From positions 1 through 43,497 of the IMG/VR virus record IMGVR_UViG_3300044960_000409: a stretch of 43,497 bases of DNA; one strand, given 5' to 3'. Below the pieces are notes generated by a model. That model saw only the letters and a program-made list of their open reading frames with translations, did no database searches and had not been told where the DNA came from. Shown here one piece after another: positions 1-43,214 of this stretch. The DNA is from a virus. Numbering within the stretch: position 1 is the first letter of the stretch; the number at the start of each line of letters is the position of its first letter. A program made the position numbers and the translations under genes.

Positions 1-127
1 TCGTCTGACTCGTTCTTGTAGTCTTCGCTGTTGAATAGCTCCTCTAGTGCTTTGTATACCCGCGGACCGGCTTCCTTCTGATATTGCAGCCACTCCTCCC
101 AAGAAAGCCTGTACTGCTTCTTGTTGA
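1..127. repeat. 127-bp terminal direct repeat, left copy
   Basis: Bases 1-127 are identical to 43371-43497. The giant gene reads in frame through the join, which supports a circular (or circularly permuted) molecule. An exact 127-bp overlap is also the usual k-mer overlap of short-read assemblers, so it should not be read as a packaged terminal repeat. Confidence 0.98.
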
Positions 128-3100
128 TCGTCATAATAGACGAAACGTAGGCCGGGCCATAGCGAATCCTCAGCAGCTCGTCCACCACAGGGTCTTCCTT
201 GTAGCGCATCCCGGCGATGCGGAAGAAGGCGCGCAGTCCTGTCGGTTCCTGCGGGACCGGGCGGCCGAACGGGTCAATCTGCTGTGGCAGCATCCCGCGT
301 ATGACCGGGAATCTCGAAGCCAGCCGCCGCGCTATTGCATGAACCTCGCGCTCCTCGGGCCTGCGTTGCAGGAACGGGGCAACGGGATGGACCGCCGTCG
401 CTATGTTCCCAAGCAAGCCGCTGTAGGGAATCAGTTGATTCAGGATGTTGCTGCCTGTGCGCTCCACCCAGGTTCCGCCGTCGCTCAGCGCCTTCATGAA
501 GCTTGAGATGCCTTGCAGGAACGTGGTCTCAAGCAGGCCCTGATACATTGCCAGAAATCCGGACAGAAGCGGCGTGTTGCCCTCTTTCACGGCCTGTGTC
601 CAGCCTGCGGCGAAATACATCGCCATAGCCAGCGGACCGAACTCTTGCAGTGGGATATAGATGTTGCCTATCCTGATAGTCCAGGCGCGCTTCCCGAGGT
701 TGCGGCGCAGGCGCTCGGTGCTCAGCGCCGGGTCAGGGCCTTCGCCCACCAACTGGATCATCCCCGCGGACTGCATCGCAAGCACCCCCGTGATGAAGGC
801 GGTGCCGACAATGGCCCGCGACAGCAGCAGCGTCTTCTGGCGCCTGTTCAGGTGTTTGTGCCTGAGCAGGAACTCGATGAACCCCAGCGGTGTGTACTGG
901 CCGCTCACCCGCGCCATGTTCACCACCACGTTCTTGATGGGGACCACAAACTTGACCGGCTTGATACCCTCCCAGACGGACTCCTCCACCAGGTTGAAGA
1001 ACTGGCCCACGAATCCCGTCGGGTGTTGTTTCGTATACAGGATGTCGTCGGCGTATTCGTTGGCCTGTTCTGTGGTGTAGGGGTCCATCGCGAGCTTCGC
1101 GCGGGTCTCGGCTATGTATGCCGCGTACTCCTGAGGCGTCGGCTTGATGCCGCGCCGCCCGAAGTATGCCCGCGCCGAGGACATGGCCATCTCTTCGATG
1201 TAGAGGCGCGTGATGATCGCGCGCGCCATCGAGTCCGATGCGAGAAGCGCCCTTCCTGGCCAGTTGATCGGGTTGACGTACTCCTTGTCTCCGACCCTGA
1301 TGTTCGGGAGGTCCTTGATCCAGCGCAGCTCATATTTGTCCAGGGTTTGCTGGTCAGCCCCGAACCGGAATGCCGCACGCGCCGAATGCACTGCGCCGGT
1401 GAGCATCTTCACAAGCTCTACGCGCCCGGCCTTCGTGCTGGCCAGCTCGTATATCGCCGTCAGCTGGTTGACACCTGCGTACCGGGAGCGGTCGCCACCT
1501 GCCGCGGCATCAAGCACACCGGCCACAGGCTTGGTGACCGATTCCGTAAGGAACCAGTGGAACAGGTTGCCATACAGGTTGGCCGCATGAGCGCCTATGG
1601 ACGACAGCAGTGCGCAGTATTGAATGGCGTGGAGCTTGTCTCCGAAGCGCAGCTGCAGGTCCATGGCCCGGTCCAGCAGCTTCCGCAGCTCTACCGGGTC
1701 TCCGTTGGCCTGCTGTATGGCCATCATCTGCATATCTGTGATGTGGCCCTGTATCTCCATCAGGCGCTGTGCCACGATAGCCGCAGGCTCCTGCGAGTCG
1801 AACGCCCGCTTGATCATCTTGAGGGCGTTGAGCGCCTGTCCTGCACGCCGCGTCTGTGCGTCGGCCAGCATCCAGGCCAGCTCGTACTGACGCTGTGCCT
1901 CTGCCATTGCCCTTGCGTTCTCAAGCGTCGGCTCGTTGAAGTAGGTGACCGCTGCTGCGTGAGCCTCTTCTCTCAGGTTGAGCATCACTCCGTAGACGGC
2001 GATCAGCTCCTCCGGCGAGGCTGCCGTGACCGGGCGTCCAAGCAGGCGGCGCATCCTCTCGGGCGTCAGGTCTGCGGCGGCCGCCAGCGCAAGGATCCGG
2101 GTCTTGTTCCAACTCTGCGGAGCCCTGATGTCCTCGGCCTGCTTGCGGGCAAACGCGCGGAACTCGTCCAGCACCCTGTCCGGGTCAGACGCCATTGAGA
2201 GGTCAATCAGCTTCACATTGATGGAGCTGATGCGCTTGCCCATCCGCAGATCGTCTTCCATCTCCTTGCGCGAGCCGCGGTAGACAAACACGGTGCCATC
2301 GTCAGGCGGAGGGTCTCCGGCCGTCCAGAAGATCAAGTCGTGGCGCGCCGCAGCCTCTTCGACAGCCGTCTGCCTTGCCCTGTGCCCCTCCCGCTCCCTG
2401 TAAGGAATGAGCTCGATGCCAGCCCGGCGCAGCGCTGCCTTCAGGTCGGTGCGCGCTGTCTCTGTCCCGGCGATTGCCAGCTTGAAGACGTTGAGCGGCA
2501 TATGGCCCATGTACTTCGCCTCGAAGTAAGGGGCGGCGTACATCTGCTGTTGGTTCTCTATCTCCGCCAGGAGCGTCTGATACACAAGCGGGCCATACCT
2601 GTTGAGCACCGGTCTCGGGATCCTGTTGCTAATAACCTCTTCCGCAGTCCGGGCGGCGTCGAACTCCCTGTGCGGCAGCAGCAGCATCGCCTCATCCCAG
2701 ATGCGCGCTACATGGTCGGATACCCTCTCAGCGTCCTCTTCTGTTATCTCGCCCTGCCTTTGCAGGTTGCGCAGGAACTCCATCGCGCCGCGCATCTCGT
2801 AGTCAATCGGTATGGACGTAGCGCCGGGGACGTCCGAGGGCATCAGGTATGGCGCGCGCCCCTTGACGTCTTTCAGGCCTTTCAGTCGTTTGAGGGGTTT
2901 TATCCAGTGCTCCACCGTGACCAAAGATTCAACGTCCTGGTCTGGCCTGACACCCGCGGTGGCCGCGAGAACCCTTCCGGCCACCGTCTTGTAGCGCGCC
3001 GCATAGGCGTTCACGATCTCCGGCGTGACGCGGTACAGACCCTCGACGTTATCGGCTGTCACCAGTTCGGACGGCGTGTTATAGGTCACAAAGCGCATGA

Positions 3101-6100
3101 CAGACGCCAGGAAGTCGTCCAGGATGTCTTCGTGCTTCCTGGCCAGCTCGAAGCCGTCGCGTGCGATCCGCGTCAGTTCGGCCAGTGTCTTTCCTGCGTG
3201 CTCTGCCGCATCCTGCGGCATCTGCATATATGCGGTGCCAGCATTCCACTCAATCTGGAAGCGTCTGATGTCTTTTTTCAGGGCGGCTATGCGCTTCAGT
3301 ATCCCGCGGGCCTCTCTAACCCCCTCACCCTTCTTGAAGAACGGCGGAAAATCGGACAGCCTCAGTCCAGCCGCCAGGACGGCCGCGCGGCCTGCTGCAG
3401 CTTCGGCCGTCTCAAGCGCCAGCCCGGCCACCGCGCGTGATGCGTCGGTGCGCCACCTGAATGTCCTGGCGGGGTCCGCAACGTCGGCCAGCTTACCGGC
3501 AATTTCGGGGAAGTCGTGCGACAGCAGCAGGGACACCCACGAATACTCAGGCTGGCCAATGCGGCTCTCTCCGTCAGGCTTTGGAGTCAGGATGTCTATG
3601 CCGTAATCCCCGCGCAGGGCGTTGACCGCCGCCCTGTACTCTGGCTGCCCGGTCACTACGTCATACGCCGACTGTCCGGGAGTAAACGTCGCGGACGGCA
3701 TACGATAGTTGGTTCTGAACTGCCCGACGATCGCACTGCGCAGAGGTTCGCGCATTGAAGGGACCGGGGTGTAAGCGTCGCCTGAGTACACGTAGAGCCT
3801 GTCGTCGTCCCACGGGATGAGCTTCGGGTCCGCGATCAGGGTCACCGTCCCGATGTCGGGAGTCTTTCCGGGGCGATGTATCGCCAGCGAGGGCATCACA
3901 AGCCCTTTCCAGCCATACATATACGCCGGGGCCGACGGCATCACGTTGGACGTGCCGTGCGTGACGATCATCTTCGTGTCGGCGCTGAACAATCTTTCCG
4001 GCTGCGTGCCGGGTATGGCCCAGTCTCCGGGCGGCACCGCCAGTCTCACCTGAGATGCCCAGAACGGTATGGCCATCGGCTTGCCGCCAATCTGCAGGTA
4101 GAACCCGTCGCGGCCCATATCCTGCAGGGCCTCCACCATCCAGCCGGTTATACCCCCGGCGTCTCCGGCCGCAAGGCGGGCAAGGGCATCGGCCAGCCCC
4201 TTCTTGCGCGCCGGTGTCACTGCGGCGGCACTCAGCACACGCCTGACTTCGGAAGTCCCGGATTGCAGGTCTTCATTGGTGACCGGGGACTCTATCCTGA
4301 TCAGGGTTGGGACATAATCGCCGCGATACGCGTCCGGGTTGAAGGCCGTGGCCTCCAGGCCAAGCAGGCGAAGGGCATCAACGATCTTCCTTGGTTCAAA
4401 GTCTGGCACCTCGCGCTTGCCGAAGACCTCAGTCAGCGCGGCTATGATGGGGTCGCCGCCTGTGTGCTCAAGCGTGGCTTCGAACGTGGTCAGTTCCACG
4501 GCCTCAGGCGCAAGCGCTGCCTCGTTGTCGGGGCCTATCGCCAGTCTGCGGGCCAGCGCGGCCACGCGCTTCCTGGCCTCCGGGGTGAGACTGTTCCACA
4601 CCATTGACGCCGGGACGAACATCCTTGGCCCGACCTTCACGTCCACGGCGTTTGCAATAGACCTGATGTAATCCACCGGCGACGGGGTCGTGTACACCTT
4701 CAGGCCCTTGTGACCCCGCGCTAGCGCAGCTGCGCCCGCGGCAGCGCTCTGGAACAACACCTGAGGCCTACCCTGGCGGTCTCTGACTACCGACCCGGAG
4801 AACCACCTCTTGAAGGCGGTGCTTCCGGTTATCGCCGGGTCCGGGGTGGCAAATGCGTCCGGCGTCCGGTCGCGCACCGTGAACAGCCTCCCCTGCACCG
4901 ACTGGTACTGCAGTCTGGCCTGCGTAACGCGCGGCACCTTCGTGTTGCCGACGGCTTCAAGGACCTGGATGTTCTTGTCCGTATAGGGAATGAACCTGCG
5001 CACCTGGTCCGCCGGGAGAGATGTAGGGGCTGCCCACCTGCCACCTTCGAAGCGCTGCCACTTCCCGTCACCGGCATATCTCCAGACGGTTGACATACCG
5101 GCTGCCCCTTCGATCGCTCTCTGGCCTACCATTGCCTGACCCATAGGCCAGCCGAAGGGGCGCTCTATCAGCTTGTGGGCCTTCATCGCCTCCACGGTAA
5201 GCGGGGTCCCGGTGCGGATGGCTCCGTACGGGTATTCCTGAGGCTTGGTGCTGTAGCGCGTATATGGCGCGCCTATGTCCGTGTCGGCAGCCAGCGGGGC
5301 CAACGGGACATAGTCCTGTATGCTGCCGAACCCCACTAGGTCTTCCAGCTCGTCGTTGCCGAACAGGCTGCCCTGGCCTGCGGTGAACAACCTGCGGGCA
5401 ACCGATGGCGTCTTGACCGCGGGAACCTCCGACCACGGAATCCCCTGCAGCACCTTTGCCGCCATCACGAGCTGGCCGAGAATATCTGCCGCGCGCGCAG
5501 CCTCTTCGCGTCCGGGGCCAACACCCAGGTATACCGCAAGACCGCTCGGCTGCACGGCCTCTACACCACCAAGGCGCTTGTAGTGTATGCCGATGACGCC
5601 CGACGACGCTATGTCTGTGAGTATGCATACCGGGATGTTCCCCAGGTCTTCGCCGTACATCCACGACACTTCAGGCATGATCGCGCTGACACGGGTTTTG
5701 GTGTGATGCTGCTTTACAGCTGTAGCCCGAAGCTCCATCAGCCTGTTTTCTGCCTCAGGGTCGTGGGCGATCAGCGCCTCAAGCCACTGGAACCCGCGCG
5801 GACCGTACGGGTTTAGCGCCATCTCCTGTCCGGGGTACCCGGCAGCCGCCAGGACTTTCAACCCTACAGTGTCCGAGCCGATCACCTTCTTGAGAAGGGG
5901 CGGGCTCTCCGGCGACCAGGCCACATGCGCATAGCGCATAGGGGTGGTCATTCGCTCGTGCCTGGACGCGTACAGCATGTAGGCATCCCGTATGACGTCA
6001 GGATCGCCTATCATATGCCACTGCGGCGGTGGCACCCACCCCTCGTGGATGGAAATGAGCGACTGCAGGTGCGGCAGGATATGCTCTGGCTCGAAGTCGC

Positions 6101-9100
6101 CTTTTGTGATCATGGGCTCCGGCACGCGAATCTCGGTCCGTGCCCAGTCAACGTCGCCGAGCGGGTTCATTTCGACCTTTGTCACGACCCCGACGAGCTT
6201 TTGCGGGAACCCTGGAACAACAGTGACCTTGGTGGCCGCCACTCCTGGATACAGACGCTCGTACTCGTCTGTGAACAGCAACTCGCCAAGCCTCACACTG
6301 TCGCCGCTTCGCAGCTCCTTGACTGCGCTCGGCAGGTGCCATTCTTTCCTCTGCCCTAAGTACTCTGTCGCCCAGTGGCCGTTGTTCTGCCTTCGCCACC
6401 CTGTCTGTTTGTATATTTCAGATTGCGGAACGCCCTGCGCCTCGAGCTCTTTGGCTCGCACAAGCCCTCGCTCTAGAGAGTGTCCGAAGCGAGCAAGTAC
6501 GTCCTGGTTGAAGGAGCTGAACTCCGCATAGTCGTCGGTGTAGCCCCGAGTCGCCCTTTCCCCTGCAAGCGTAAACAGGTACTCCCGTGTGGCCAGCGGC
6601 GACTGGCGGCCGGTGATCATTTCGTATTCGGCCGGAGCACCCTTGGCCAACATCTTCAGGACATATTTGGCCGCAGTATGGTGCGGGCTTGTGTGGTCCA
6701 GCCAGTTGGCGCGAATCGCCCTGCGCTGCGCGTCGCTAAGCTCGGACACCGGGAACTTCTTACGCTTGTCGCGGGTCCACTCTGCGAGAGTTTCGCGCAC
6801 ACTCTCGACCGTGCGGCCGTCGGGGGCTCTCCCGATGACCTGCCTGCCCGGCTCCGACAGATAAGCCACCCCGAACCGGTTGCCGGAGGACGCCCGTTGC
6901 AGCCATGCGTCAGCGCCAAGCTCCCTCATGGCGGCGGCCTGCAGGGCGGTCCTGAGGGTTGCTCCCGGCAGCATTGAGCGCGCGTGGCGGGTGATGTACA
7001 CGTTCAACACATGGCCCCCGTCACGCGAGGCAGAACCCGGCGTCAGGGCCATCGTGGGAGTCAGGTCCCAACCGCCTCTGGCGGCAGACGTGTCAGACAG
7101 GACCGTGATGTTGACCGGTATATCGCCGATTCCCCTAGCCAGCCTGACCAGCCCGGAGGTGCCGGGGATATCTTTCAGCGTCAGGCGGCGTGTCCCGAGC
7201 GGGAGCGACTTCTCAAATGCGTCAATCTCAGGGTTCGGCCCGGCTAGGGCGTCAATGACAGACTGAGGCACGCGACGGGCCTTCAGCACTTCGCGCACGG
7301 ACGCGATGGAGGCCACAGCATCGGCAATACCTAGGCCGCCAGATGCCACCATCACCGGAGGAGCCGCGGGAAGCTCGTATGCTCCGTCGCGTGCGCCCAC
7401 ACGAGGCAAGTGCGCGTATGTCTGGACGGCGTTCCTGGCTTCAGGGGCGGCCTCGCGGACCGTGAACATGGACTGCTGACCGGCCTGATCCTGCTGTCTC
7501 TTTGCGGCTTCCGCCTCACGTTGCCGCTGTTGCTCCTGTAGCTGTGCGATGCTCAGGCGCAACTTGTCCAGGACTTCAGGGAAGAACTCTGCAGCCAACT
7601 CGGAGGGCGTGGGCACCCTGTCTATCTTGATGCCGTCGCGAATCTTCTGCCGGACGCGCTCGTCCAGGTCCCTGTCCAGGTTGAACAGCATCCTGACCTT
7701 GTCCAGGATGTGCCTGTTCGAGCTTGCCACGCTTTCGGCCTCTGCCTTGCGCTCCTCGGCCTTGATGGATTCTCCTTCGAGAAGTTCAACGTCGGTAGGG
7801 GCAAGGACTGCGGCCCTGTACTGGCGGGCCTTCTTGGCCAGCACCTCCTTGACCTGATACACCACGGCCTCGACGTCGGCCAGAGTCTGCGCCCAGGCCT
7901 CATCGAGCACCATCTGCCCTGTTCCGCCGGTGAACCCAGGCCCGGTCCTCTGGATCTCGTGCTGTTGCAAGATGTCCTGTGCGAACAGCGCTGCTTTCTG
8001 GTACGAGGTGATCTCGGTCTGCATGATGCCGCGCATCACCATCAGCTGCAGGTCATGGTCTGACACGTAGTCGCCGATGGCAGCGCCGACGTCTTCCGAG
8101 ACAGCGCCGTTCGCAACGTTTGCCAGCGCCTCGTCAGACAGCTTGGCAAGGCCACGGATATTGCGCGCGATGCCCATCCTCAGGCTGATGCCGTGCTCCT
8201 GCAGGCGCGACATATCCATGTTGAGGTCGCGCAAAGCTCTCAGGGCGTCCAGTGCCGTGCTGTGGCCCGCCCTGATATTCGACACGGCGGCCCAGCCACG
8301 CACTTTCTCCAGCGTCCAGCCGTCGGACTCCCTTAGAATGCGTATCGGGATCTTGCGGTCTTTCTGCTCGACCAGCTCTATTGGGTTGTCGGGGTCGCTG
8401 GTCGGGCGCTCTATGAGGAACCGCTTTGCGCGCTTGGCCAGGTCCAACCTGTGGTGCCCGTGAACCACGTAACGCGTTCCGTCTTCCCGCTCCCAGACGT
8501 CAAGCTGCCGGGCTTGATCAACGAAGAAGACGTCCGTGCCGCGCAGCGTATCCGTGACCCTGTTCTCAAGGTCCACAAGGCCCGTCTTGAACTGAATCTC
8601 GGGGTGCACCTTGATACTGCCTGGGTCTACCCACTCGTCAATCCGGACCTCCCTGTCCTCCATGCTGTCGGGGCTGGGTCTGGAGACCTTCTCCGCAGGC
8701 TTCTCCGCAGGCTTCTCTGCAGGCTTCTCTGCAGGCTTCTCTGCAGGCTTCTCTGCAGGCTTCTCTGCAGGCTTCTCTGCAGGCTTCTCTGCCTCAGTTC
8801 GCGGCGGTGCCTTTTCGGCCTCTTCGCCCGGAAGCCTGGACCACCAGCCTTCCGGATGCCTTGCGAAGTACCTGTCCAGATACGCCCTGACATTCGGGTG
8901 AAAGTCCCGGTTCTCTGCGACGACGCCCCTTCTCACAACCTCGGCGTTTGCTCGCGTCACAGGGACCAGCTCGCTTGCCCGGAAGTCGGTCGTTCCGCGC
9001 GGGTTGTCAGTCCAGCTTGCTGCGTTCAGCCTGAGCTGATACACACGTTCTCCGCGTTCGCGCACACCCGTATCGCGGACCAGGGTGTAGACGGCATTGT

Positions 9101-12100
9101 AATAAAAGCCATCCCGCGACCGGACGAAGAACTTCTGCCCCTTGCGGAATCTTCCGGCGTCAGGGTCTTCGTAGAGGCCTGCGGGGCCAAGCTCCTCAGG
9201 TGTCAGGCGTCTTGACAGTTTGAGATGATTGAAGTCGTTGTCTATGACAGCTTTGTAGGGGCCGCGCGCATAATGCTCAATCGAGTCCCTGATCGTCTTG
9301 ACGCCCTGCTCGAACTGCTCATCGTCGAACCACGTCGGCCTCAAGTACACACCCCTGTAGGTGTAAGGCACCTCCTCGTCCGGGAGGTCAAGATGGCCGA
9401 CCTCTGTCCGGTATTCGTTGACCTTGCGCACCTGCACTGGCGGGAGCTTTGCGGGCGTCTCCGGCGCTTTCTCCGGCTCTGCTGCGGGCTGCGCGGGCTG
9501 CTGCGGCTGCGTCTCCTTCTGTTCCGGCGGCACAGGCTCCATTGTGAAGCGCGACGGCTTATCCAGTTCTGACGGCGCTTGCTCCGCCGGGGCGGGTTTT
9601 TGCGGCTCGGGTTGTGTGGCCTCCTCGGCGTATCGGGGCTGCTGCGCCACACCTGCGTGCGCAAGCAGCGCCTGCGCCACGTAGTCCTGCGTGCCGCTTA
9701 CATCGCGCGAAGCCTGCTCCGCAAACCGCGTGGCCACCTCCGGCGTTATCGCGCCGTCAGGCGCAGCCTTCTTCAGGAACTCACCCAGAAGCCTGGCCTC
9801 GTCATAATACAGCTGCCGCGCAACAGGAGTCTGTGATTCTTTGAGCCTTACGCTGTACGCCGGACCGTTCGTCCTTTGTCCGCGGGGCGCCTCCGCCACA
9901 TACGGGCCGAGGTCCAGGGTTCGCGGAAAGGCGCGGCGCTGGATTATTGACCTCCGGGACGAGTCAGTGGCAGGGACGGCCAGCGTCCTCATCTCTTCAA
10001 GCCGTTCCCTGCGCCTGATCTCGTACGGGTCCGTCGTGGTGGCCCCTTCAGGCACCTGGCCGGGCTGCCAGCGCGGCACGTTGATCGGAGGGCCAACGTA
10101 CATCGGGGGCGGCGTTGGCATCCCGATATCACGCGGAGCAAGCGGCGAAGCGGGCCGACGCCACCCCTGGCCGGGCTGCGCTTGCCCGGAGGCAGCTGCC
10201 TCTGGACCGGTCTCTGCCTGTGCGGCCGCCTCCGGGCTCCATTCGCGCGCCTGCACGCCTCCGCTGGCCCACTGACTCCTGAACTGCCTGTAGGTGCGGA
10301 ACTCGGGCTTGTATAGCGCGCGGATGAAGTCCGCTACGCGCCTCACGACTACCGGCGCCGAGCCGCCACGCGCCATCTCGCGCGCAAGGTAGGTCATTGT
10401 GTAGGCCGCGGCCTCGTCCACGGACTGAGAGTTCGCCCAGTTGACTGACAGGCCGTATTTCTGCGCCCCGACCTTCGCAAGCGCCATGTGCTCGTCGTCC
10501 GTGACAAGCCCGCCATGGCGCATCACGTGGTAGATCTCATGCGCCACATCCCCGATATCCACGGTGTCAGGGTTCTCCATCCTGACGAACACGCGGGGAT
10601 TGTTCGGGTCTGTGATATCTGTGAACGCAGGTGGAAGATCTGCGGCGTTTTTGATGGTTTCGCGTGAACGCTCGTACGCCTCGCGGCTTTCTTCGACAGC
10701 CCTGCGAAAGAACTCGTCGTCTCGCGCCTCTATTGTGAACGTTCTGCCGCCTTCGGTCTTGACCCTGACACCGTTCGGGACGGTTTCGACGTCTACTTCG
10801 ACGTGCTGGCCGCCGGGCACAGAGCGCAGGATCTTGCGGAGATAGGCGCGTGTAAACGCCTCGCTTGACTCGCCCTGGGCCAGCGCCTCCTTGATGTCGG
10901 CCCAGCGCTCCGATGTTTGCACCCCCTCGAAGTTGACTCCGTAGCCGTCCTTGTCGCGGAATGCATGACCCTTCGGCGGCTTCACGAACTCCGGGGCTGG
11001 CCTGCGCTTCTCGCCGGTGACTTCCTCAAGCGCGGCCTCTGCGGCCTGCTGAGCATACTGGCCACCAAGCTTGCCGATGGCAGCGCCTGTAAGGGCAGTC
11101 ACTGCGGCTCCGCCGCTTGCCAGGAGTCCTTCAGACAGCACCTCTGCGGCCATCTTTCGAGATGCCAGCGGCGTGCCTACGGCCAGCTGCGCCCCCAGCT
11201 CCTGTCCGGACTCGGCAACCGCACCGGCCGTTGTGGCCAGCGCGCCGCGCCCGAGCCTCTGCAGCATCGAGATGCCGGGCGTTGCGGCCCAGGCCCCGAG
11301 ACCCATAGTGGCCAGGCTTCCGGGGACGCCGAGGGCAGCGGTTGTCTGACCGTGAATGTGCCCGTACTCCTCGGCCTTGCGCCTGAACGTCGGGTTTGCG
11401 GCTGCCCACCGCAACGCCCGCGCGTCCTTGACGTTCACCCCATGCTCGCGCAGGTAGTTGAACTCCTCAAGAGCGGAATCAATGGCGTATTCGGACCGTG
11501 CCTGTCCCAGTGCGCCTGCGGCAAGGCCTGTGGCGATGCCCCCGACACCGGTAGCTTTGCCAAGGACAGCGCCGACGATACCGGCGACAGGGGACCTTGC
11601 GATCTCAGGAACCTGCTGACCGAGCTGTTCCCACGTGAGGTCCCATATGCCCTGCCCCCAGTTCCCGAGGGCGTACTTCCACCAGTCCAGGTGTGTCGGG
11701 TCCAGGCCTTTCTTCTTTATCTCCTCGACGCCTTTGGCGCGCCCCATCCTGTCTGCCGTGGCGGCCAGGCGCGCGGCCTCCTCGTAGTCGCCGCGCTTGT
11801 ATGCCAGGGCCGCCTCGATGTTCAGGCCGCCTGCCAGGAACGCGTTCACCGCCGTGCCTACAGGTCCCTTAGGCGGCCGCTCGTCTTTCAGGCTTGCCGC
11901 GTCGCTTACGGCCGACCTGTAGACCTCCTGCACTTTGTTGGTGACGATGTCAGCCGCGGACTGCGCCGCCCTTCCGGCGATCATGTACTGCGCCGCCCGC
12001 TTCAGGACTTCCGGCGCCATCTCACGCGCAGCAAGCCTTGCCGTAAGCAGCGGGGCCTGCTCCGCCAGCATCGTTCCAGCCGGGCCTGCCACAAAGCGAG

Positions 12101-13367
12101 CCGCTCCGCCTGCCGTGCCAACGGCCGGTCCAACGCCGAGGCTGCCGATGGTGGCCGCCGTGATGGCGGCTGCCTGCATCCACGCCCGCTCCGGAGATTC
12201 GGCCTCCGCCTGCAGCTGCGCAGGCGTGGGGCTCGGCAGTTTGACGCCATGCCACAGACTTTCATCAGGCCGCGGCGGCAGCATCGCGCCTTCGGGCGGC
12301 GGGACCACAAATTGCCGCGGCCTTCCCGGCGGTGTCAGGCGTTCGTGGCCAAGGCGCATGCTATGCGCGTCCAGAAGTGGGCTCTTTACCTTGTCGGCGT
12401 TCTCTACGATGTCCCGGCTGATGCGCGCCGTCAGATATGCGTGCCTGACGGCCTCCGGGTTCCATTTGAAACCGGCGTATTTGACGTCGGCCATCAGCTC
12501 GTCCAGGCCCTCCCACGGCTCCGCTTTGACCCGCCACGTTGCGATCAACCGCTTGGCCTGCTCGCTTAGCTGAGGCCCTTTATACTCGCTGACCTTCTCG
12601 AACTTTGGCGGCTGCTTGAACTCGGGAAGCGGTTCCTTGAACTGCTCCAGCCTGTCTCTGACGGTGTAGAACCCGCCGAAGTGCTTCTTGTTATACGGGG
12701 CGTCGAGTGTGTCGTAGATTACTTTGCGGCGTCCGCCTGCTGCGGCATGGACGAACTTCTTGCCGCCAAGGTAGATCCCGGCATGGAACACCTCGCCCGT
12801 CTTAGGCCTGCGGAACAGGATCACGTCGCCCGGCTGAGCCTCGGCCTCGCCAACGCGTGTAAGGGTCTTCTCCATCTCCTTTGTCGTCCGCGGCAGCTTC
12901 AGGCCAAGGTCACCGAACACGCACTGAACAAAGCTGGAGCAGTCATAAGGGGTGTTCCTGTCAGCGCCGCCCGGTGCTCCGAACTTGTACGGAGCGCCGA
13001 GACGTTTCTCTATCGCCTCTGTCAGGCGCTGCTGCGTCTCGGGGGAGAAGCTGCCGTACCTCGGAGTCATGACCTTATTGCGTATGAGGACGTCCTCTAT
13101 GGTCTCTCCGGGGCGGCGCTTCAGATTCTTCATCTGAGCTTCCTGCTTGGCCGCTCCTTCCGGCGCAACCGTGCTCATAGCACCTACGCGCGTCAGGATG
13201 TCCTCTATGGTCTCTCCGGGGCGGCGCTTCAGCTCTTTGAGGGATTCGGGCAGCGGCTTTTCTACAGGCTCTTCCTGCCACACTTCGGGCACCCTGTATG
13301 GCCCGAAGCTCATATCCTTCAAGAACTGCTCAATGTCGTCGTAGTCGTAGTCGTTCTGCCGCCTCAT
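1..13367 (-). CDS. Giant 4507-aa polyvalent/ejection protein (N-terminal 99%)
   Basis: The frame is open from ATG 13367 to base 1 and continues across the circular junction to a TGA at 43214-43216, giving 4507 residues. The ATG overlaps the stop of the preceding gene (ATGA). Domains read by hand: a duplicated PGETIED motif (about residues 45-100); an NlpC/P60 cysteine peptidase (about 110-225; Cys143 in YDCSSF, His195 in FHAGIYLG); Ala/Gly-rich hydrophobic stretches (about 390-780); a zincin motif HEIYH at 943-947 with acidic residues downstream; eight EKPA repeats (about 1526-1560); a ParB/sulfiredoxin-type segment (GHH at 1637-1639); a degenerate ART-type entry motif near 2852-2875; a polyvalent-core-like segment with GLVMPSLAI (about 3130-3190); and hydrophobic segments near the C-terminus (about 4100-4330). 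Its place after two internal-virion-like genes and before lysis matches T7 gp16, so I infer a virion ejection protein with cell-wall hydrolase activity. The separate roles of the internal domains are unknown. Confidence 0.93.
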   Translation of the reverse strand, partial: MRRQNDYDYDDIEQFLKDMSFGPYRVPEVWQEEPVEKPLPESLKELKRRPGETIEDILTRVGAMSTVAPEGAAKQEAQMKNLKRRPGETIEDVLIRNKVMTPRYGSFSPETQQRLTEAIEKRLGAPYKFGAPGGADRNTPYDCSSFVQCVFGDLGLKLPRTTKEMEKTLTRVGEAEAQPGDVILFRRPKTGEVFHAGIYLGGKKFVHAAAGGRRKVIYDTLDAPYNKKHFGGFYTVRDRLEQFKEPLPEFKQPPKFEKVSEYKGPQLSEQAKRLIATWRVKAEPWEGLDELMADVKYAGFKWNPEAVRHAYLTARISRDIVENADKVKSPLLDAHSMRLGHERLTPPGRPRQFVVPPPEGAMLPPRPDESLWHGVKLPSPTPAQLQAEAESPERAWMQAAAITAATIGSLGVGPAVGTAGGAARFVAGPAGTMLAEQAPLLTARLAAREMAPEVLKRAAQYMIAGRAAQSAADIVTNKVQEVYRSAVSDAASLKDERPPKGPVGTAVNAFLAGGLNIEAALAYKRGDYEEAARLAATADRMGRAKGVEEIKKKGLDPTHLDWWKYALGNWGQGIWDLTWEQLGQQVPEIARSPVAGIVGAVLGKATGVGGIATGLAAGALGQARSEYAIDSALEEFNYLREHGVNVKDARALRWAAANPTFRRKAEEYGHIHGQTTAALGVPGSLATMGLGAWAATPGISMLQRLGRGALATTAGAVAESGQELGAQLAVGTPLASRKMAAEVLSEGLLASGGAAVTALTGAAIGKLGGQYAQQAAEAALEEVTGEKRRPAPEFVKPPKGHAFRDKDGYGVNFEGVQTSERWADIKEALAQGESSEAFTRAYLRKILRSVPGGQHVEVDVETVPNGVRVKTEGGRTFTIEARDDEFFRRAVEESREAYERSRETIKNAADLPPAFTDITDPNNPRVFVRMENPDTVDIGDVAHEIYHVMRHGGLVTDDEHMALAKVGAQKYGLSVNWANSQSVDEAAAYTMTYLAREMARGGSAPVVVRRVADFIRALYKPEFRTYRQFRSQWASGGVQAREWSPEAAAQAETGPEAAASGQAQPGQGWRRPASPLAPRDIGMPTPPPMYVGPPINVPRWQPGQVPEGATTTDPYEIRRRERLEEMRTLAVPATDSSRRSIIQRRAFPRTLDLGPYVAEAPRGQRTNGPAYSVRLKESQTPVARQLYYDEARLLGEFLKKAAPDGAITPEVATRFAEQASRDVSGTQDYVAQALLAHAGVAQQPRYAEEATQPEPQKPAPAEQAPSELDKPSRFTMEPVPPEQKETQPQQPAQPAAEPEKAPETPAKLPPVQVRKVNEYRTEVGHLDLPDEEVPYTYRGVYLRPTWFDDEQFEQGVKTIRDSIEHYARGPYKAVIDNDFNHLKLSRRLTPEELGPAGLYEDPDAGRFRKGQKFFVRSRDGFYYNAVYTLVRDTGVRERGERVYQLRLNAASWTDNPRGTTDFRASELVPVTRANAEVVRRGVVAENRDFHPNVRAYLDRYFARHPEGWWSRLPGEEAEKAPPRTEAEKPAEKPAEKPAEKPAEKPAEKPAEKPAEKPAEKVSRPSPDSMEDREVRIDEWVDPGSIKVHPEIQFKTGLVDLENRVTDTLRGTDVFFVDQARQLDVWEREDGTRYVVHGHHRLDLAKRAKRFLIERPTSDPDNPIELVEQKDRKIPIRILRESDGWTLEKVRGWAAVSNIRAGHSTALDALRALRDLNMDMSRLQEHGISLRMGIARNIRGLAKLSDEALANVANGAVSEDVGAAIGDYVSDHDLQLMVMRGIMQTEITSYQKAALFAQDILQQHEIQRTGPGFTGGTGQMVLDEAWAQTLADVEAVVYQVKEVLAKKARQYRAAVLAPTDVELLEGESIKAEERKAEAESVASSNRHILDKVRMLFNLDRDLDERVRQKIRDGIKIDRVPTPSELAAEFFPEVLDKLRLSIAQLQEQQRQREAEAAKRQQDQAGQQSMFTVREAAPEARNAVQTYAHLPRVGARDGAYELPAAPPVMVASGGLGIADAVASIASVREVLKARRVPQSVIDALAGPNPEIDAFEKSLPLGTRRLTLKDIPGTSGLVRLARGIGDIPVNITVLSDTSAARGGWDLTPTMALTPGSASRDGGHVLNVYITRHARSMLPGATLRTALQAAAMRELGADAWLQRASSGNRFGVAYLSEPGRQVIGRAPDGRTVESVRETLAEWTRDKRKKFPVSELSDAQRRAIRANWLDHTSPHHTAAKYVLKMLAKGAPAEYEMITGRQSPLATREYLFTLAGERATRGYTDDYAEFSSFNQDVLARFGHSLERGLVRAKELEAQGVPQSEIYKQTGWRRQNNGHWATEYLGQRKEWHLPSAVKELRSGDSVRLGELLFTDEYERLYPGVAATKVTVVPGFPQKLVGVVTKVEMNPLGDVDWARTEIRVPEPMITKGDFEPEHILPHLQSLISIHEGWVPPPQWHMIGDPDVIRDAYMLYASRHERMTTPMRYAHVAWSPESPPLLKKVIGSDTVGLKVLAAAGYPGQEMALNPYGPRGFQWLEALIAHDPEAENRLMELRATAVKQHHTKTRVSAIMPEVSWMYGEDLGNIPVCILTDIASSGVIGIHYKRLGGVEAVQPSGLAVYLGVGPGREEAARAADILGQLVMAAKVLQGIPWSEVPAVKTPSVARRLFTAGQGSLFGNDELEDLVGFGSIQDYVPLAPLAADTDIGAPYTRYSTKPQEYPYGAIRTGTPLTVEAMKAHKLIERPFGWPMGQAMVGQRAIEGAAGMSTVWRYAGDGKWQRFEGGRWAAPTSLPADQVRRFIPYTDKNIQVLEAVGNTKVPRVTQARLQYQSVQGRLFTVRDRTPDAFATPDPAITGSTAFKRWFSGSVVRDRQGRPQVLFQSAAAGAAALARGHKGLKVYTTPSPVDYIRSIANAVDVKVGPRMFVPASMVWNSLTPEARKRVAALARRLAIGPDNEAALAPEAVELTTFEATLEHTGGDPIIAALTEVFGKREVPDFEPRKIVDALRLLGLEATAFNPDAYRGDYVPTLIRIESPVTNEDLQSGTSEVRRVLSAAAVTPARKKGLADALARLAAGDAGGITGWMVEALQDMGRDGFYLQIGGKPMAIPFWASQVRLAVPPGDWAIPGTQPERLFSADTKMIVTHGTSNVMPSAPAYMYGWKGLVMPSLAIHRPGKTPDIGTVTLIADPKLIPWDDDRLYVYSGDAYTPVPSMREPLRSAIVGQFRTNYRMPSATFTPGQSAYDVVTGQPEYRAAVNALRGDYGIDILTPKPDGESRIGQPEYSWVSLLLSHDFPEIAGKLADVADPARTFRWRTDASRAVAGLALETAEAAAGRAAVLAAGLRLSDFPPFFKKGEGVREARGILKRIAALKKDIRRFQIEWNAGTAYMQMPQDAAEHAGKTLAELTRIARDGFELARKHEDILDDFLASVMRFVTYNTPSELVTADNVEGLYRVTPEIVNAYAARYKTVAGRVLAATAGVRPDQDVESLVTVEHWIKPLKRLKGLKDVKGRAPYLMPSDVPGATSIPIDYEMRGAMEFLRNLQRQGEITEEDAERVSDHVARIWDEAMLLLPHREFDAARTAEEVISNRIPRPVLNRYGPLVYQTLLAEIENQQQMYAAPYFEAKYMGHMPLNVFKLAIAGTETARTDLKAALRRAGIELIPYREREGHRARQTAVEEAAARHDLIFWTAGDPPPDDGTVFVYRGSRKEMEDDLRMGKRISSINVKLIDLSMASDPDRVLDEFRAFARKQAEDIRAPQSWNKTRILALAAAADLTPERMRRLLGRPVTAASPEELIAVYGVMLNLREEAHAAAVTYFNEPTLENARAMAEAQRQYELAWMLADAQTRRAGQALNALKMIKRAFDSQEPAAIVAQRLMEIQGHITDMQMMAIQQANGDPVELRKLLDRAMDLQLRFGDKLHAIQYCALLSSIGAHAANLYGNLFHWFLTESVTKPVAGVLDAAAGGDRSRYAGVNQLTAIYELASTKAGRVELVKMLTGAVHSARAAFRFGADQQTLDKYELRWIKDLPNIRVGDKEYVNPINWPGRALLASDSMARAIITRLYIEEMAMSSARAYFGRRGIKPTPQEYAAYIAETRAKLAMDPYTTEQANEYADDILYTKQHPTGFVGQFFNLVEESVWEGIKPVKFVVPIKNVVVNMARVSGQYTPLGFIEFLLRHKHLNRRQKTLLLSRAIVGTAFITGVLAMQSAGMIQLVGEGPDPALSTERLRRNLGKRAWTIRIGNIYIPLQEFGPLAMAMYFAAGWTQAVKEGNTPLLSGFLAMYQGLLETTFLQGISSFMKALSDGGTWVERTGSNILNQLIPYSGLLGNIATAVHPVAPFLQRRPEEREVHAIARRLASRFPVIRGMLPQQIDPFGRPVPQEPTGLRAFFRIAGMRYKEDPVVDELLRIRYGPAYVSSIMTINKKQYRLSWEEWLQYQKEAGPRVYKALEELFNSEDYKNESD
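8689..8792 (-). repeat. 12-bp tandem repeat encoding (EKPA)8 linker
   Basis: Eight full copies and a partial copy of a 12-bp unit (plus strand TTCTCTGCAGGC, the first two copies with TTCTCC). In the frame of the giant protein it encodes Glu-Lys-Pro-Ala repeats at about residues 1526-1560, between the zincin-containing region and the ParB-type segment. Such charged Pro/Ala repeats are typical stiff inter-domain linkers. The copy number is likely variable. Confidence 0.9.
13093..13232 (-). repeat. Duplicated PGETIED motif near the N-terminus of the giant protein
   Basis: Two exact 32-bp copies (13093-13124 and 13201-13232), 108 bp apart, each encoding a segment with LKRRPGETIED just before the NlpC/P60 domain. 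The exact nucleotide identity points to a recent in-frame duplication of a 36-codon unit. Confidence 0.85.
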
Positions 13368-15070
13368 CGCTCTTCAGGCCCCAGCATGAACTCCAGCGCG
13401 TTCGCTATCTGCTCGTCGGTCCAACCCTTCTTGCGCATACCGGCGACAGTCTCTGGCTTGACCAGGGGGCGCGGGTCGGTCTTGGACATGCGCGTTGACA
13501 TGACCCTCTGGATGTATTGCTTGGCCGTCTCTCCAGGCTTGCGCGCCCAGGCCGTGTTCTTGGCTGCAGCCTCTTCCGGCGCGCCCGGCAGCTTAGGCTG
13601 TGCTGTGGGGGCACCCGAAGGTGCCCCCTTCTGGCTCACCGGGGCACCAGGGGCGGAAGGGCCTCCGGATCTTTGCATCTCTTTTCGGGCCGCTATGGCC
13701 CTGAAGGCGTCGGACATTGACCGGTAGACCGGCCCCAGGTCCTTAGTGGACTCATACAATTCAGCCTCCATGCCAAGCTGAGCGTACCTGACAGCAAGGG
13801 CGTTGGTAGCCTGAACATCTAGCCGGTTCTCCCGGTCTATAGCCAGAGCCAGCATCGCGGCTGCGTTCCTGAAGTTGGCCCACCCGAGGTCGAGGCGGCC
13901 CTGAGCTATGTCGAGCATCGCATTGTCGAAAGCCTTCTTGTGGGCCTGCCAGTCAACCTTGAGCTTGTACTCCTTGGCGGTCATGTCTATGGCCTGAGCT
14001 ATGCGGTCAGTTACAACCCTGACCTTCTCCAGATTGGCCTTGTCCAGCGCGGCCAGCGTGTCGTTGTAGATCGTCTTGAACGTCTCGAAGTCGGTCTCCG
14101 TGTCCCACGGGACCATCACCTTGTACGCCTCGTAGGCTCCTTCAGGGCTCAGCCTACCCATAGACTGCTGGCTGACGATCGTCCTCATTGCCGCAAGCTG
14201 CACCTGCTGCCTCGTCCTGATATCGCGAGGGTCAGGCGCTGTCATGTATTTGACGAACGGCTCAGGCGGCGCCTGCGGCTCCAGCGGCGACTGCGGGGAC
14301 TGCAGTGGCGGCGCGGCTGGCTCGTAAGCCGGAGGCGTGACGCCGGGGGCTATCCTCTGCACCGGAGTCCACGCCCCCAATGGTGGCTGGCTCAATGGGG
14401 GCGTGGATCCGGTGCTCGGCAGGGATGGACTGGCTGCCAGCGGGCCTCTGGAGGGTGGCATCAGAAGACCGCGCTGGACAGCTGTCTGGTACAAGTCTGC
14501 TGGCGAGATGCTCAGTTGCAACGGCTGCCTAGGCTGCTCTGGCTGCTGCTGGCGCTGCTGCAACTGCCGCTCCGATTGCTGCACCAGGGACGCGAAATAG
14601 CTTCCAAGGTGCGGATACTCCTTCACGAAGGAGTCCCAGGTTGCCTTCATCAGGCTCTGGACGTCGGGGTCATTCGGCGAGCGCCCCTGAAGGCCCAGCT
14701 TGCCGCGCAGGGACGCTACAGCTTCCAGGCCTTCAATGCCGGACTTCACCGCGCCGTACGGCTTTACTGAGGGAAGCCCATATTCCCGCGAGAGTTCGTT
14801 TGCCGCATCGTAGTAAGGCTGTGCAGCCGCGACGCCTTCCGACTTCTCAAGCTCCCGCCCCTTCTGGACAAGCGACTCCCAGCGCTGCATTGCGGAGGAC
14901 TTGTCGCTGCGCGGCTTGGACTCTAGCTCCTGCTTGAGCGCCTCCAGCTTCAGCTGACTTTCCAGCATCTGCTGCCGGTGGCGCTCGTATTCCATCATGT
15001 TCTGGCGATAGCGGCCTGCGCCCGAACCAAGGACGACAAGCAGGCCAAGGAGTCCTTCTCCGAGATTCAT
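13364..15070 (-). CDS. Internal virion-like protein, 568 aa
   Basis: I recognise no enzymatic domain. The N-terminus (MNLGEGLLGLLVVLGSGAG) is a short hydrophobic, Gly-rich helix. It is followed by a long Gln/Glu/Lys-rich helical part (about residues 25-60), a Pro/Gln-rich middle (about 190-270) and a second helical region (about 280-470). A short Ala/Pro-rich linker and a helical C-terminus follow. The start lies 1 nt past the upstream stop, and its TGA overlaps the ATG of the giant gene. A hydrophobic N-terminus with long helices just upstream of the giant hydrolase protein suits a T7 gp14/gp15-type ejection protein, but that is inference from position and composition. Confidence 0.85.
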   Translation of the reverse strand: MNLGEGLLGLLVVLGSGAGRYRQNMMEYERHRQQMLESQLKLEALKQELESKPRSDKSSAMQRWESLVQKGRELEKSEGVAAAQPYYDAANELSREYGLPSVKPYGAVKSGIEGLEAVASLRGKLGLQGRSPNDPDVQSLMKATWDSFVKEYPHLGSYFASLVQQSERQLQQRQQQPEQPRQPLQLSISPADLYQTAVQRGLLMPPSRGPLAASPSLPSTGSTPPLSQPPLGAWTPVQRIAPGVTPPAYEPAAPPLQSPQSPLEPQAPPEPFVKYMTAPDPRDIRTRQQVQLAAMRTIVSQQSMGRLSPEGAYEAYKVMVPWDTETDFETFKTIYNDTLAALDKANLEKVRVVTDRIAQAIDMTAKEYKLKVDWQAHKKAFDNAMLDIAQGRLDLGWANFRNAAAMLALAIDRENRLDVQATNALAVRYAQLGMEAELYESTKDLGPVYRSMSDAFRAIAARKEMQRSGGPSAPGAPVSQKGAPSGAPTAQPKLPGAPEEAAAKNTAWARKPGETAKQYIQRVMSTRMSKTDPRPLVKPETVAGMRKKGWTDEQIANALEFMLGPEER

Positions 15071-15071: not shown

Positions 15072-16712
15072 TTACTTCTTCTTCCATATAGACACTAGGT
15101 CGCCCAGTCCTGTCCCGAGCGCCCCTAGGCCCGTCAGCCATGAATAATCTGGCCGGGATGCCTTCCAGCGCTCGAACTCCAGGGCCGCCTGCTGGCCATA
15201 AAGCTGAGCGATGTCGGTCATTGCGGCTGCCGTCTGGACAGGTTGCACGGGGCTTCCGGAAAGACCCTGCAGCATGGCAAGCAGCTGTGCAAACTGGCCC
15301 TGCAGGTTCCCCCTTTCCTGTGCTGCCCACTGGGCGCGCAAGATCGCATCCTGGTTTCTCTGGATGTCCTCGGCGCGCTGCCACTCTGTCTTTCTCCACC
15401 AGTCCTGCGATGCGAGCTGGTCCCATGCCAGCCGGGCCGCGCGTTCGCGGGCCGCAAACTCACTGCCGTAGATCGCCTGCTGGTTAGCGGCGTCAACAAG
15501 CTCTTTCTGGAACTGCTGAGTCTTCCACCAGTCCTCAAGCTGCTGCTGAGCCAGCTGGTTTGCAAACTGACCCTCGCGCATCCTGCGCTCGTTCTCTGCG
15601 AGGCGCGCACCTAGGTCCATCTGGTATTTGAGCTGCGTGATGGCATTGCCTTCCTGCCGCAACCGCTGCTCTAGCTCGGACCTGATCCTTGCTACGTCCA
15701 GACCCATGCGCGCACCTTCGCGCCTCAGATAGTTGTCCAGTGCGGCCTGTGACGTCCCCGCGAAGGTCGAGCCGGTCAAACCGCGCCGGACGGCTTCGGC
15801 ATCAAGCATCGTGCCTTCGGCGCGGCCTATCTGCTCCAGATTCACGGCTTTGGCTAGATCGCCTGCCTCCTGTATTCTCTGACCGGCAGCCTGCCAGTCC
15901 GGCGCTGCGCTGAATTGCTCGATGTATTTGAGCGTGTCCAGCAGGTCCACGCCGGTATACTTCGATGCGTCCACCGTGTTGACAGGCCGCCCGGACGGGT
16001 CGAACTGCATCTGCTGGAACACGGGAGCCTGCAGCTCTTTGAACGGCGTGAGTTGGGGCATAGACGCCCAGTCAACGTCACGATAAGTGAACGTCGGGGC
16101 ATCTATCGTCTGACCGAACCCGAAGGCCCTAGGGTCAACAGCCGTCTTTTGCCCGAGGTCCGCCATGTTGACCTGCGGCCCCGAGCCCACAAGCTGATTG
16201 TAGTAATCCTGCAGGCCCAGCTTCTCGCGCAGCGGCGCCTGTGAGGCCGCGTATTTCTTCAGCGCCTCATCGGCCATGATGACCTTAGTGAAGTCGCTTC
16301 CGTATCGGCTCCACCACTCAGGGTTGTCCACATACTGCAGCAGCTGAGCTTCGCTGGTGAAGCGCATCGGGACTCCAGCGGCTTTGACGTCCCAGAGTTT
16401 GCTTCCCACGGTGCTCCACGTCGGCAGCTGCTGAGGGGTTCCTCCGGTCACCTGCGCCCCGCGCAGCTGTCCAAGGAGGTCTTGTGCGGTCACATTGGAG
16501 GTCGTGGCGGGGCCTTGCGGATTAGCAAGAAAGGCGGCAATGCCCGCCGCCGGGCCTGTAAGCAGTCCTAGGTTCCAGGCCTGACGCGCGGTCTCGGGGC
16601 GGCCAAGCACATTCCATTGCTCGGTCAGGATATCACGTGCTACTTGCAGATTCCGCGCCTGCTCGTATTCGGCCGGACTCGGTGGCGGTGGAGACGACTG
16701 CTTCTTTCCCAT
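15072..16712 (-). CDS. Internal virion-like protein, 546 aa, Gln-rich
   Basis: Unknown family. The protein starts MGKKQSSPPPP and has an Ala/Gly hydrophobic stretch near residues 45-65 (LLTGPAAGIAAFLA). From about residue 290 to 500 it is a long Gln/Glu/Arg-rich helical region with many Trp residues, and it ends in a basic WKKK. The start is ATG 16712, with GAGG 8-9 nt upstream; the 3' end of the GNAT gene overlaps the first 80 nt. Its position (tail genes, GNAT, this gene, 568-aa gene, giant gene) suggests a component of the ejected internal core. Nothing in the sequence shows an enzymatic role. Confidence 0.85.
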   Translation of the reverse strand: MGKKQSSPPPPSPAEYEQARNLQVARDILTEQWNVLGRPETARQAWNLGLLTGPAAGIAAFLANPQGPATTSNVTAQDLLGQLRGAQVTGGTPQQLPTWSTVGSKLWDVKAAGVPMRFTSEAQLLQYVDNPEWWSRYGSDFTKVIMADEALKKYAASQAPLREKLGLQDYYNQLVGSGPQVNMADLGQKTAVDPRAFGFGQTIDAPTFTYRDVDWASMPQLTPFKELQAPVFQQMQFDPSGRPVNTVDASKYTGVDLLDTLKYIEQFSAAPDWQAAGQRIQEAGDLAKAVNLEQIGRAEGTMLDAEAVRRGLTGSTFAGTSQAALDNYLRREGARMGLDVARIRSELEQRLRQEGNAITQLKYQMDLGARLAENERRMREGQFANQLAQQQLEDWWKTQQFQKELVDAANQQAIYGSEFAARERAARLAWDQLASQDWWRKTEWQRAEDIQRNQDAILRAQWAAQERGNLQGQFAQLLAMLQGLSGSPVQPVQTAAAMTDIAQLYGQQAALEFERWKASRPDYSWLTGLGALGTGLGDLVSIWKKK

Positions 16713-17205
16713 CGTCGTGCCTCAATATAAAGTATGATGCCTGCTCAAAGTATCGCGCGAAGAATGCGTGTTCTTTGATCTCCTCCCACACCACCGCGTC
16801 GGCCCCCATCTGCTTTGTTATGCCTATGAGGCCGTCTATGACACTGATGATCGTGCGAGGACTGCGATGCTCAGGCTCTATGTACAGGTCTTGCACGAAA
16901 GCCGCGGTCTGCGGCCACTTCTCACCATACCATTCTCCCCACGCATCGAGCGTGATGGCGACTGCGCCGATCGGCAGGACTTCCCCGCCCTGCTCGCGGC
17001 CTATCAGAAAGATAACACCACTGGCCATGACCCCCTCAAGGTGCTTCTCAAGCGCCTCGAAAGACGGCCTGTACCCCCTCTCTGCCACCTGCTGATACAG
17101 ATAGCGGAAAGCCTGGTCGTAGGCTTCGCCAGGCCCGGCCACTGGCTTGATAGCAAGAGGTTCGCCACCCCAGCGCGCTATCAGGTCTTTTATGGTGCTA
17201 GCCAT
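16633..17205 (-). CDS. GNAT-fold acetyltransferase-like protein, 190 aa
   Basis: The start is ATG 17205 (MASTIKDLIARWGG), overlapping the glycosidase stop by 16 nt; the open frame extends further upstream but that part reads as out-of-frame noise. The core FVQDLYIEPEHRSPRTI followed by a helix resembles GNAT motif A (beta4, pyrophosphate loop, alpha3), and later ADAVVWEEIKEHAFFARY fits the motif B end. The loop has HRSPRT where a typical GNAT has Q/RxxGxG/A, so acetyl-CoA binding is uncertain. GNAT-like folds are known in internal virion protein A of T7-like phages, and the position among virion genes fits that. The last 27 codons overlap the next gene and look like overprinted tail sequence. 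Confidence 0.75.
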   Translation of the reverse strand: MASTIKDLIARWGGEPLAIKPVAGPGEAYDQAFRYLYQQVAERGYRPSFEALEKHLEGVMASGVIFLIGREQGGEVLPIGAVAITLDAWGEWYGEKWPQTAAFVQDLYIEPEHRSPRTIISVIDGLIGITKQMGADAVVWEEIKEHAFFARYFEQASYFILRHDDGKEAVVSTATESGRIRAGAESASST

Positions 17206-20648: not shown

Positions 20649-20725
20649 TGACTGGGGCGCAGCGTCAGGGATATTGGGCGGAGGGCCTGACCCCCCGTCT
20701 CCCTGAGACTCGTATTCAGTTGTTA

Positions 20726-30641: not shown

Positions 30642-30964
30642 AGTCTCAACCTTGGCCCGAGAAACCTGTCTGTCGCGTCCCCGCTTGGCGGCACTTCGTC
30701 ATCATCATCCTCCAGGAGAGGGTGTCTGTCAAGTGGGCGTGCGTCCTGGTAGTCCGTGCCCGGCGGTGTGTAGGCCGATTTTGCGCTCATCGTGAAGACC
30801 TCCGGGTGAAGGTCTCTGATGCATTGCTCCATACCTTCGAGTCTTGACTCCACTTTTGCAAGGGTGTTCGAGACTCTCTGTATGACGATGGTGGCGTACA
30901 GCAGCATCATCGCCACGAGAAGGGACTCAAAGGCCATAATCGTCGAGATAATGGTCTCCAGCAC
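30638..30964 (-). CDS. Small membrane protein between terminase and portal, 108 aa
   Basis: One N-terminal membrane helix (AFESLLVAMMLLYATIVI), a short amphipathic coil (RVSNTLAKVESRLEGMEQCI), and a charged Pro/Asp-rich tail. It starts at GTG 30964 with GGAG 8-10 nt upstream and overlaps the terminase end by 38 nt and the portal start by 4. I do not recognise a family. It could be a lysis-timing or membrane-anchoring protein; context alone does not decide. Confidence 0.72.
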   Translation of the reverse strand: MLETIISTIMAFESLLVAMMLLYATIVIQRVSNTLAKVESRLEGMEQCIRDLHPEVFTMSAKSAYTPPGTDYQDARPLDRHPLLEDDDDEVPPSGDATDRFLGPRLRL

Positions 30965-33210: not shown

Positions 33211-33377
33211 GTGTAGTGGACTCAAGTCTTTGGTAAAAAACGTTACCCCCTGTCGCAAGTGGAGTCGCAAGAAGAGGGGGATTTAGGCGAATGTGTGGAG
33301 GGGAAACCCTACGGGGGCGATAGCCCGCCCGGATACCCACCCCCGCCACCTCCTCCCAGCAGGGAGTGAGCTGGACC

Positions 33378-34809: not shown

Positions 34810-34829
34810 GTTTTCGTGGAGGAACACCG

Positions 34830-41702: not shown

Positions 41703-41709
41703 CAAAGCA

Positions 41710-42975: not shown

Positions 42976-43214
42976 TGCTTGCTCCTCATAGGGCACTCAA
43001 TGCGGCCATACAGTTGGCCGCTGAACTCACGCACCGCGCCTGACAGCGAGTTCACTGCCTGCGCCAGCTCGTGATACTGCTCACGCTGCTCCTTCTGCTC
43101 CTGCCTGCGCATCTCTCGTTCTTCGCGCAGGAACCGCAGGAACAGGAACACGGTTATGATGACAGCGACGCTTTGCCCGCCCTGGCTGATGAGCTTGATC
43201 ACCTCGGCGTCCAT
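42972..43214 (-). CDS. Membrane-anchored coiled-coil lysis protein, 80 aa
   Basis: N-terminal membrane helix (SVAVIITVFLFLRFL), then a highly charged Arg/Glu/Gln coiled coil (REEREMRRQEQKEQREQYHE), and a small C-terminal amphipathic part. This is the layout of an inner-membrane spanin (Rz-like) or an antiholin. ATG 43214 overlaps the giant-gene stop (a GTG one codon earlier also fits); its TGA overlaps the holin-like ATG. No outer-membrane spanin partner was found. Confidence 0.75.
   Translation of the reverse strand: MDAEVIKLISQGGQSVAVIITVFLFLRFLREEREMRRQEQKEQREQYHELAQAVNSLSGAVREFSGQLYGRIECPMRSKQ

Follow-up and report, generated by a model that had tools for sequence, protein, structure and literature searches.

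Among the internal virion proteins of short-tailed phages, gp16 of T7 carries an N-terminal transglycosylase, passes through the tail and helps to line the channel across the periplasm; its C-terminal part, which has DNA-binding activity, ends up in the cytoplasm, as outlined in PMC8954989. The virion RNA polymerase (vRNAP) of N4, with about 3500 residues, is described in PMC12633501 as the counterpart of gp16. A second group of large phage products is formed by the polyvalent proteins, described by Iyer et al. 2017 (PMC5512222) as often longer than 2000 residues and composed of 2-15 domains; N4 vRNAP is included among them. Injected multidomain proteins of giant size are therefore already known, and the protein described below is no record in size.

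The window analysed here (the whole stretch of viral DNA, 43,497 nucleotides) contains a continuous and real minus-strand gene of 4507 codons, whose product is called the giant in the following. The first-pass annotation had proposed that this frame crosses the contig junction from ATG 13367 to TGA 43214 and takes up about 31% of the genome, and this was reproduced on a collapsed circle of 43,370 bases. The gene belongs to a late structural operon, in which the terminase, portal, capsid, tail-type, 546-aa and 568-aa genes lie upstream on the same strand (Table 1). An amidase endolysin gene comes after the giant, and replication and recombination genes occupy the opposite strand. The 546- and 568-aa products showed no homology to gp14 or gp15 of T7, P-SSP7 or ProddE. 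Among annotated proteins, the portal is closest to those of Arthrobacter Jasminevirus phages. Many relatives of the terminase large subunit, 44-57% identical, occur in IMG/VR, nearly all in records (often fragments) without the portal or the giant of this phage; because these relatives mostly lack the portal, the packaging genes do not track the giant module and seem to move independently. Several other features of the genome are recorded here. The two neighbouring tail-type genes at 17190-21889 both give enzyme-like matches (DUF1349 and GDSL-lipase-like), and a frame at 16633-17523 overlaps its two neighbours and has no match in PHROGs; its C-terminal half, judged by eye, we take to resemble an acetyltransferase. 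The plus-strand genes at 34800-42252 include those for primase- and helicase-like proteins, a RecT-like annealing protein, a DNA methyltransferase, a Mu Gam-like protein and a RusA-like resolvase, and a 45-bp direct repeat in 2.8 copies (33368-33494) is located near the divergence point of the two transcription directions.

Table 1. Positions of the giant gene, its domains and neighbouring features in the window (aa, residues of the giant unless a gene product is named)
Feature	Position	Strand	Evidence or remark
Giant ORF, codons 1-4455 of 4507, continuing over the junction	3..13367	-	ORF listing, collapsed circle, coding bias
Giant ORF end past the junction, about 52 codons (bases 2 and 1 included), then TGA 43214-43216	43214..43370	-	Collapsed circle, codon usage
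NlpC/P60 peptidase domain, aa 124-231	12675..12998	-	Pfam PF00877 5.5e-20; Cys143, His195, His207
Zincin-like HExxH stretch, aa 941-970 (HExxH 943-947)	10458..10547	-	Weak profile match
(PAEK)n linker, aa 1529-1560	8688..8783	-	In-frame 12-bp tandem repeat
DdrB-like ParB domain, aa 1578-1784	8016..8636	-	blastp 2e-20 to Ruegeria phage 45A6; alignment; 20 viral loci
LPD23-like stretch, aa 2302-2332	6372..6464	-	PF18838 5.8e-5, whole protein
Degenerate ART-like entry motif, aa 2849-2875	4743..4823	-	Weak
gp16-type internal virion (ejection) protein domain, aa 3913-4453	9..1631	-	PHROG, blastp, hhalign, profile searches
Strongest hydrophobic segment, aa 4180-4198, within the gp16-type domain	774..830	-	Mean hydropathy 1.85
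568-aa gene adjoining the giant upstream, stop overlaps its ATG	13364..15070	-	Possible second ejection protein, position only
546-aa gene	15072..16712	-	Possible first ejection protein, position only
1152-aa gene, probable tail protein	17190..20648	-	DUF1349 match
Tail protein	20726..21889	-	GDSL-lipase-like match
Major capsid protein	26207..27649	-
Portal protein, P22/T7-like kind	28722..30641	-	Weak matches to P22 and T7-type portal families
Terminase large subunit	30927..32291	-
End repeat, left copy	1..127	.	Identical to right copy 43371-43497

The best clue to the function of the giant is its gp16-type C-terminal domain, which the first-pass annotation had overlooked. PHROG 6651, annotated as internal virion protein, matched residues 4035-4451 at 7e-11. 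A phmmer search with the full-length giant gave nothing, and blastp and hhalign were used instead. In blastp against fetched proteins, the giant matched a protein of MW202733 (2e-13), internal virion protein D of Desulfovibrio phage ProddE (1e-9) and proteins of the cyanophages NATL1A-7 (1e-7) and S-SRP01 (4e-5). Comparison of the last 757 residues with a five-protein profile by hhalign gave a probability of 99.3 and E 5e-20 over 468 columns, while all three shuffled controls and all five other segments of the giant remained at E 0.2-0.7. A profile built without P-SSP7 recovered P-SSP7 gp16 at 4e-82, and among 13 records it matched only the four source phages and P-SSP7, with none in T7, phiKMV or SP6. 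Likewise, no similarity was detectable between the C terminus of the giant and a T7/phiKMV/SP6 profile (hhalign E 0.08). These comparisons establish homology of the C-terminal ~540 residues to the gp16-type internal virion proteins of the P-SSP7/ProddE lineage, including those of NATL1A-7 and S-SRP01. A putatively membrane-spanning hydrophobic segment is present in this part of the giant. As the name of P-SSP7 gp16 is itself based on synteny and size, the functional label of the domain rests on genome position in the P-SSP7 lineage and on analogy with T7, as far as the latter is outlined in PMC8954989. LPD38, the terminal domain of other polyvalent frames, was considered as a homolog of the gp16-type domain and rejected, with no Pfam match in the giant and an hhalign E of 0.6.

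At the opposite end of the chain, the NlpC/P60 domain that had been noted at first sight is well supported by Pfam, with its cysteine and both histidines all in place, and solved NlpC/P60 structures exist among the relatives of this N-terminal domain. The ParB-type domain proved to be of the DdrB-like kind found in phage polyvalent proteins; when aligned with others in a set of seven proteins, it keeps all invariant columns, the G-H-x-R motif among them. The same kind of domain was found in 20 IMG/VR loci, where the frames measure 674-3621 aa and some are truncated at a contig end, and at 10 places in all nine genomes brought in by a scan. Two unrelated domains, NlpC/P60 and DdrB-like ParB, thus share one chain, as in polyvalent proteins. 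The remaining assignments are more tentative. A zincin profile, built from zincin-like regions of Ruegeria phage 45A6, the Halocynthiibacter genome G081 and related frames, scored 7.7 bits exactly at the HExxH of residue 943, while 200 shuffled versions of that region scored 1.9 at best; the motif claimed earlier is present, and a zincin at residues 941-970 is weakly supported though probable, since a single sequence among 185 shuffled relatives scored as high as 6.9 bits with the same model. The degenerate ART entry is also weakly supported; its 8.0 bits exceeded the best of 200 shuffles (-0.6), yet the match covers just 27 residues of a region picked after the motif had already been seen, and a Gln occupies the position of the catalytic His. 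This part, if real, is probably inactive. As a slice, the LPD23-like stretch matched PF18838 at 4.7e-6 and 26.7 bits, slightly below the cut-off of 27. Matches to DUF6699 (0.0015 as a slice), Peptidase_M78 (0.15) and PBECR5 (0.009) were under their cut-offs and set aside, and a weak resemblance of residues 886-1038 to Dokki_15/HC34, in which the aligned chains have no HExxH, was taken as chance. Single-sequence structure predictions for residues 800-1060 and 2835-3130 reached mean pLDDT values of only 36 and 42, PADLOC matched nothing, and about 3000 residues of the giant carry no label after all domain assignments.

A three-sequence alignment of the gp16-type domain found 37 metagenomic relatives in IMG/VR; 27 of them have complete open frames (889-2601 aa), all shorter than the giant. 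Pfam searches on 11 of the 37 placed an SLT domain together with NlpC/P60 ahead of the gp16-type domain in L135 (1705 aa) and an SLT domain alone in L138, whereas L141 gave weak ParB_N and HTH_ParB matches in the same place and L153 a MotA_ExbB match, all below cut-off; nothing was found in the other seven. The NlpC/P60 domains of L135 and L136 align with that of the giant at 2e-9, and the DdrB-like ParB profile scored 15.5 bits on L141, compared with 4.7 for the best of 185 shuffles. HExxH occurs in six of the 37 relatives (five when the like pair L160/L162 is counted once), every one longer than 1500 aa, whereas shuffling gives a mean expectation of 0.26 and none of 1000 shuffles reached five. 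The zincin profile had no match in these six, which may represent other zincin clades or may not be zincins. Three gp16-type relatives, L147, L168 and L140 (2601, 2540 and 2120 aa), contain HExxH and have no Pfam match. A P-SSP7-like cyanophage set was drawn from 80 IMG/VR loci, 61 of which had the frame-picking motif; the 49 complete frames among these span 1229-1414 aa, and the rest were left out. Judging from these domain predictions, what precedes the C-terminal domain varies in part of the lineage and includes recognisable enzymes, and the giant appears as the largest protein found in a modular set with a gp16-type chassis and changing N-terminal cargo. Close relatives of giant residues 3001-4455 were not found in IMG/VR by single-protein patterns. 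Residues 3990-4455 were absent from 80 records sharing the terminase or portal, and the C-terminal-domain profile matched none of 38 records, the records being often fragments in both cases. A portal like that of this phage occurred in none of 14 records of the 37 relatives.

Because of the C-terminal homology, the NlpC/P60 domain and the ParB-like domain, the product of the gene is quite probably a podovirus ejection protein of polyvalent type, and the earlier proposal of an ejected virion protein is likely to be right, since the C terminus is homologous to gp16-type internal virion proteins. The zincin and ART assignments could fall without altering the conclusion. For the virion location, the ejection, every activity and any self-cleavage of the giant, we infer the following course. 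The giant would reside inside the head, packaged alongside the proteins encoded by the two preceding genes, and would exit the virion before the DNA. Its NlpC/P60 domain would cut the peptide bridges of the cell wall, replacing the transglycosylase of T7 gp16, and the gp16-type domain, by analogy with T7, would seat at the inner membrane and help to draw the DNA in. The ~3700 intervening residues would enter the cytoplasm as cargo, and the ParB-like domain may act there on DNA or nucleotides; a zincin that is active may release modules by cleaving the chain.

A different role, in which the giant is not ejected and serves as a structural or tail-associated adsorption protein whose NlpC/P60 domain opens the wall and whose middle is a spacer with dead enzyme folds, draws on several tail proteins among the PHROG matches of the NlpC/P60 stretch, on the ART-like entry without its His and on the lack of phage matches for most of the middle. 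It is nevertheless unlikely, as it is internal virion proteins, not tail proteins, that the C terminus resembles, and varied enzyme-like domains and motifs are also found in the relatives of the giant.

The giant owes little of its length to the contig junction. Within the contig, the minus-strand frame listed at 3..13367 encodes 4455 aa and is open to the left edge, and the two contig ends share an exact repeat of 127 bases. Since 127 is a usual largest k-mer of SPAdes-type assemblers, the repeat is probably an assembly overlap rather than a biological terminal repeat. Removal of one copy gives the circle on which the frame has 4507 codons, while the uncollapsed reading has 4545 codons and a different end. 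At this base composition, 4507 random codons would contain about 135 stops by chance. The G+C content at codon position 3 is 0.71-0.86 across all 19 blocks of 250 codons (the last short), comparable to 0.76 in the structural genes, and the start codon overlaps the stop codon of the preceding gene. The 52 post-junction codons of the collapsed circle score +0.185 log2 odds per codon, among blocks of the giant that range from -0.015 to 0.72, whereas the uncollapsed continuation scores -0.204, outside that range. BLAST alignments with some relatives extend past the junction to residues 4501 and 4507; with 29 of the 37 relatives (shorter or right-cut frames left out), the summed score gain beyond the junction was 168 for the collapsed and 101 for the uncollapsed reading, against a mean of 117 and a maximum of 238 for 100 shuffled tails. 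This cross-junction homology is not significant. Its lack of significance, together with a repeat length equal to a common assembler k-mer, could suit a linear contig. The 127 bases would then be either truly repeated at the termini or misjoined by chance, and the gene would stop at another point, with fewer or more than 4507 codons. Such an arrangement is distinctly improbable, given that 4455 codons already lie within the contig without need of the junction, and that gene-like codon usage is found in the collapsed continuation and absent from the uncollapsed one. A short tail is moreover expected after the matched region, because the MW202733 and ProddE proteins run 83 and 77 residues beyond it.

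The giant joins two literatures, that on the DNA-channel ejection proteins of short-tailed phages and that on polyvalent proteins, whose presumed role is to be injected and to counter host defences. While giant multidomain injected proteins are familiar, a P-SSP7-type gp16 domain fused to polyvalent cargo appears to be new, and no description of it was found in the open-access literature. The evidence is evenly balanced on a broader proposal, that within one podovirus lineage the gp16-type domain serves generally as a chassis for delivery, on which cargo (cell-wall hydrolases, ParB-like domains, zincins) is swapped. Pushed here to 4507 residues, it would be a package of several enzymes that is injected, possibly processes itself and may disarm the host ahead of the first expression of phage genes. 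This idea of a chassis with exchangeable cargo is testable and would be the most interesting outcome; if the domain is a carrier, a C-terminal profile would find injected effectors through what phages place before it. The giant also provides an extreme case for the question of how a chain of about half a megadalton passes a phage tail.

Compared with its homologs in P-SSP7, NATL1A-7, S-SRP01 and ProddE, which are 1245-1525 aa long, the giant is extended by the NlpC/P60 and ParB-like cargo; a large late gene is common to them, which in ProddE and P-SSP7 comes last among the annotated internal virion proteins. With phage polyvalent proteins it shares several unrelated activities per chain, a DdrB-like ParB domain, the late-gene context and possibly a zincin, a module frequent in that class though not required. 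The first-pass annotation correctly ranked the giant above T7 gp16 (1318 aa) and N4 vRNAP in size but overstated the oddity, as frames of 5343 aa (polyvalent, of another subtype but the same broad class), 3912 and 3621 aa exist. The 3912-aa protein of Ruegeria phage 45A6 (ANH49087.1), encoded in a 53-kb genome, contains ParB, helicase, methylase, GNAT, zincin-like and LPD38 regions, and the 5343-aa open frame of G081 (Halocynthiibacter sp. SDUM655004; L114, L128-L129), longer than the giant, contains a DdrB-like ParB domain, HExxH and LPD38. Over 390 genomes of the order of G081 the ParB profile was found in G081 alone, and LPD38 in two of 292; such giants are therefore rare in that order. Both of these polyvalent frames end in LPD38, whereas the giant ends in a gp16-type domain, and it carries an NlpC/P60 domain, a term absent from the main text of the 2017 polyvalent paper (PMC5512222). 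N4 vRNAP of the Schitoviridae is likewise a giant podovirus ejection protein, comparable in size and the largest of its set as presented in PMC12633501, but it has a polymerase module, and the notion that the giant is an N4-like or other virion polymerase in disguise is scarcely credible, as no RNA polymerase family matched it in Pfam, PHROGs or NCBIfam. With T7 gp16, the giant shares a plan of an N-terminal peptidoglycan hydrolase, a C-terminal hydrophobic segment and a basic end, although NlpC/P60 stands in place of the transglycosylase, the chain is 3.4 times longer and no sequence similarity is detectable between the two.
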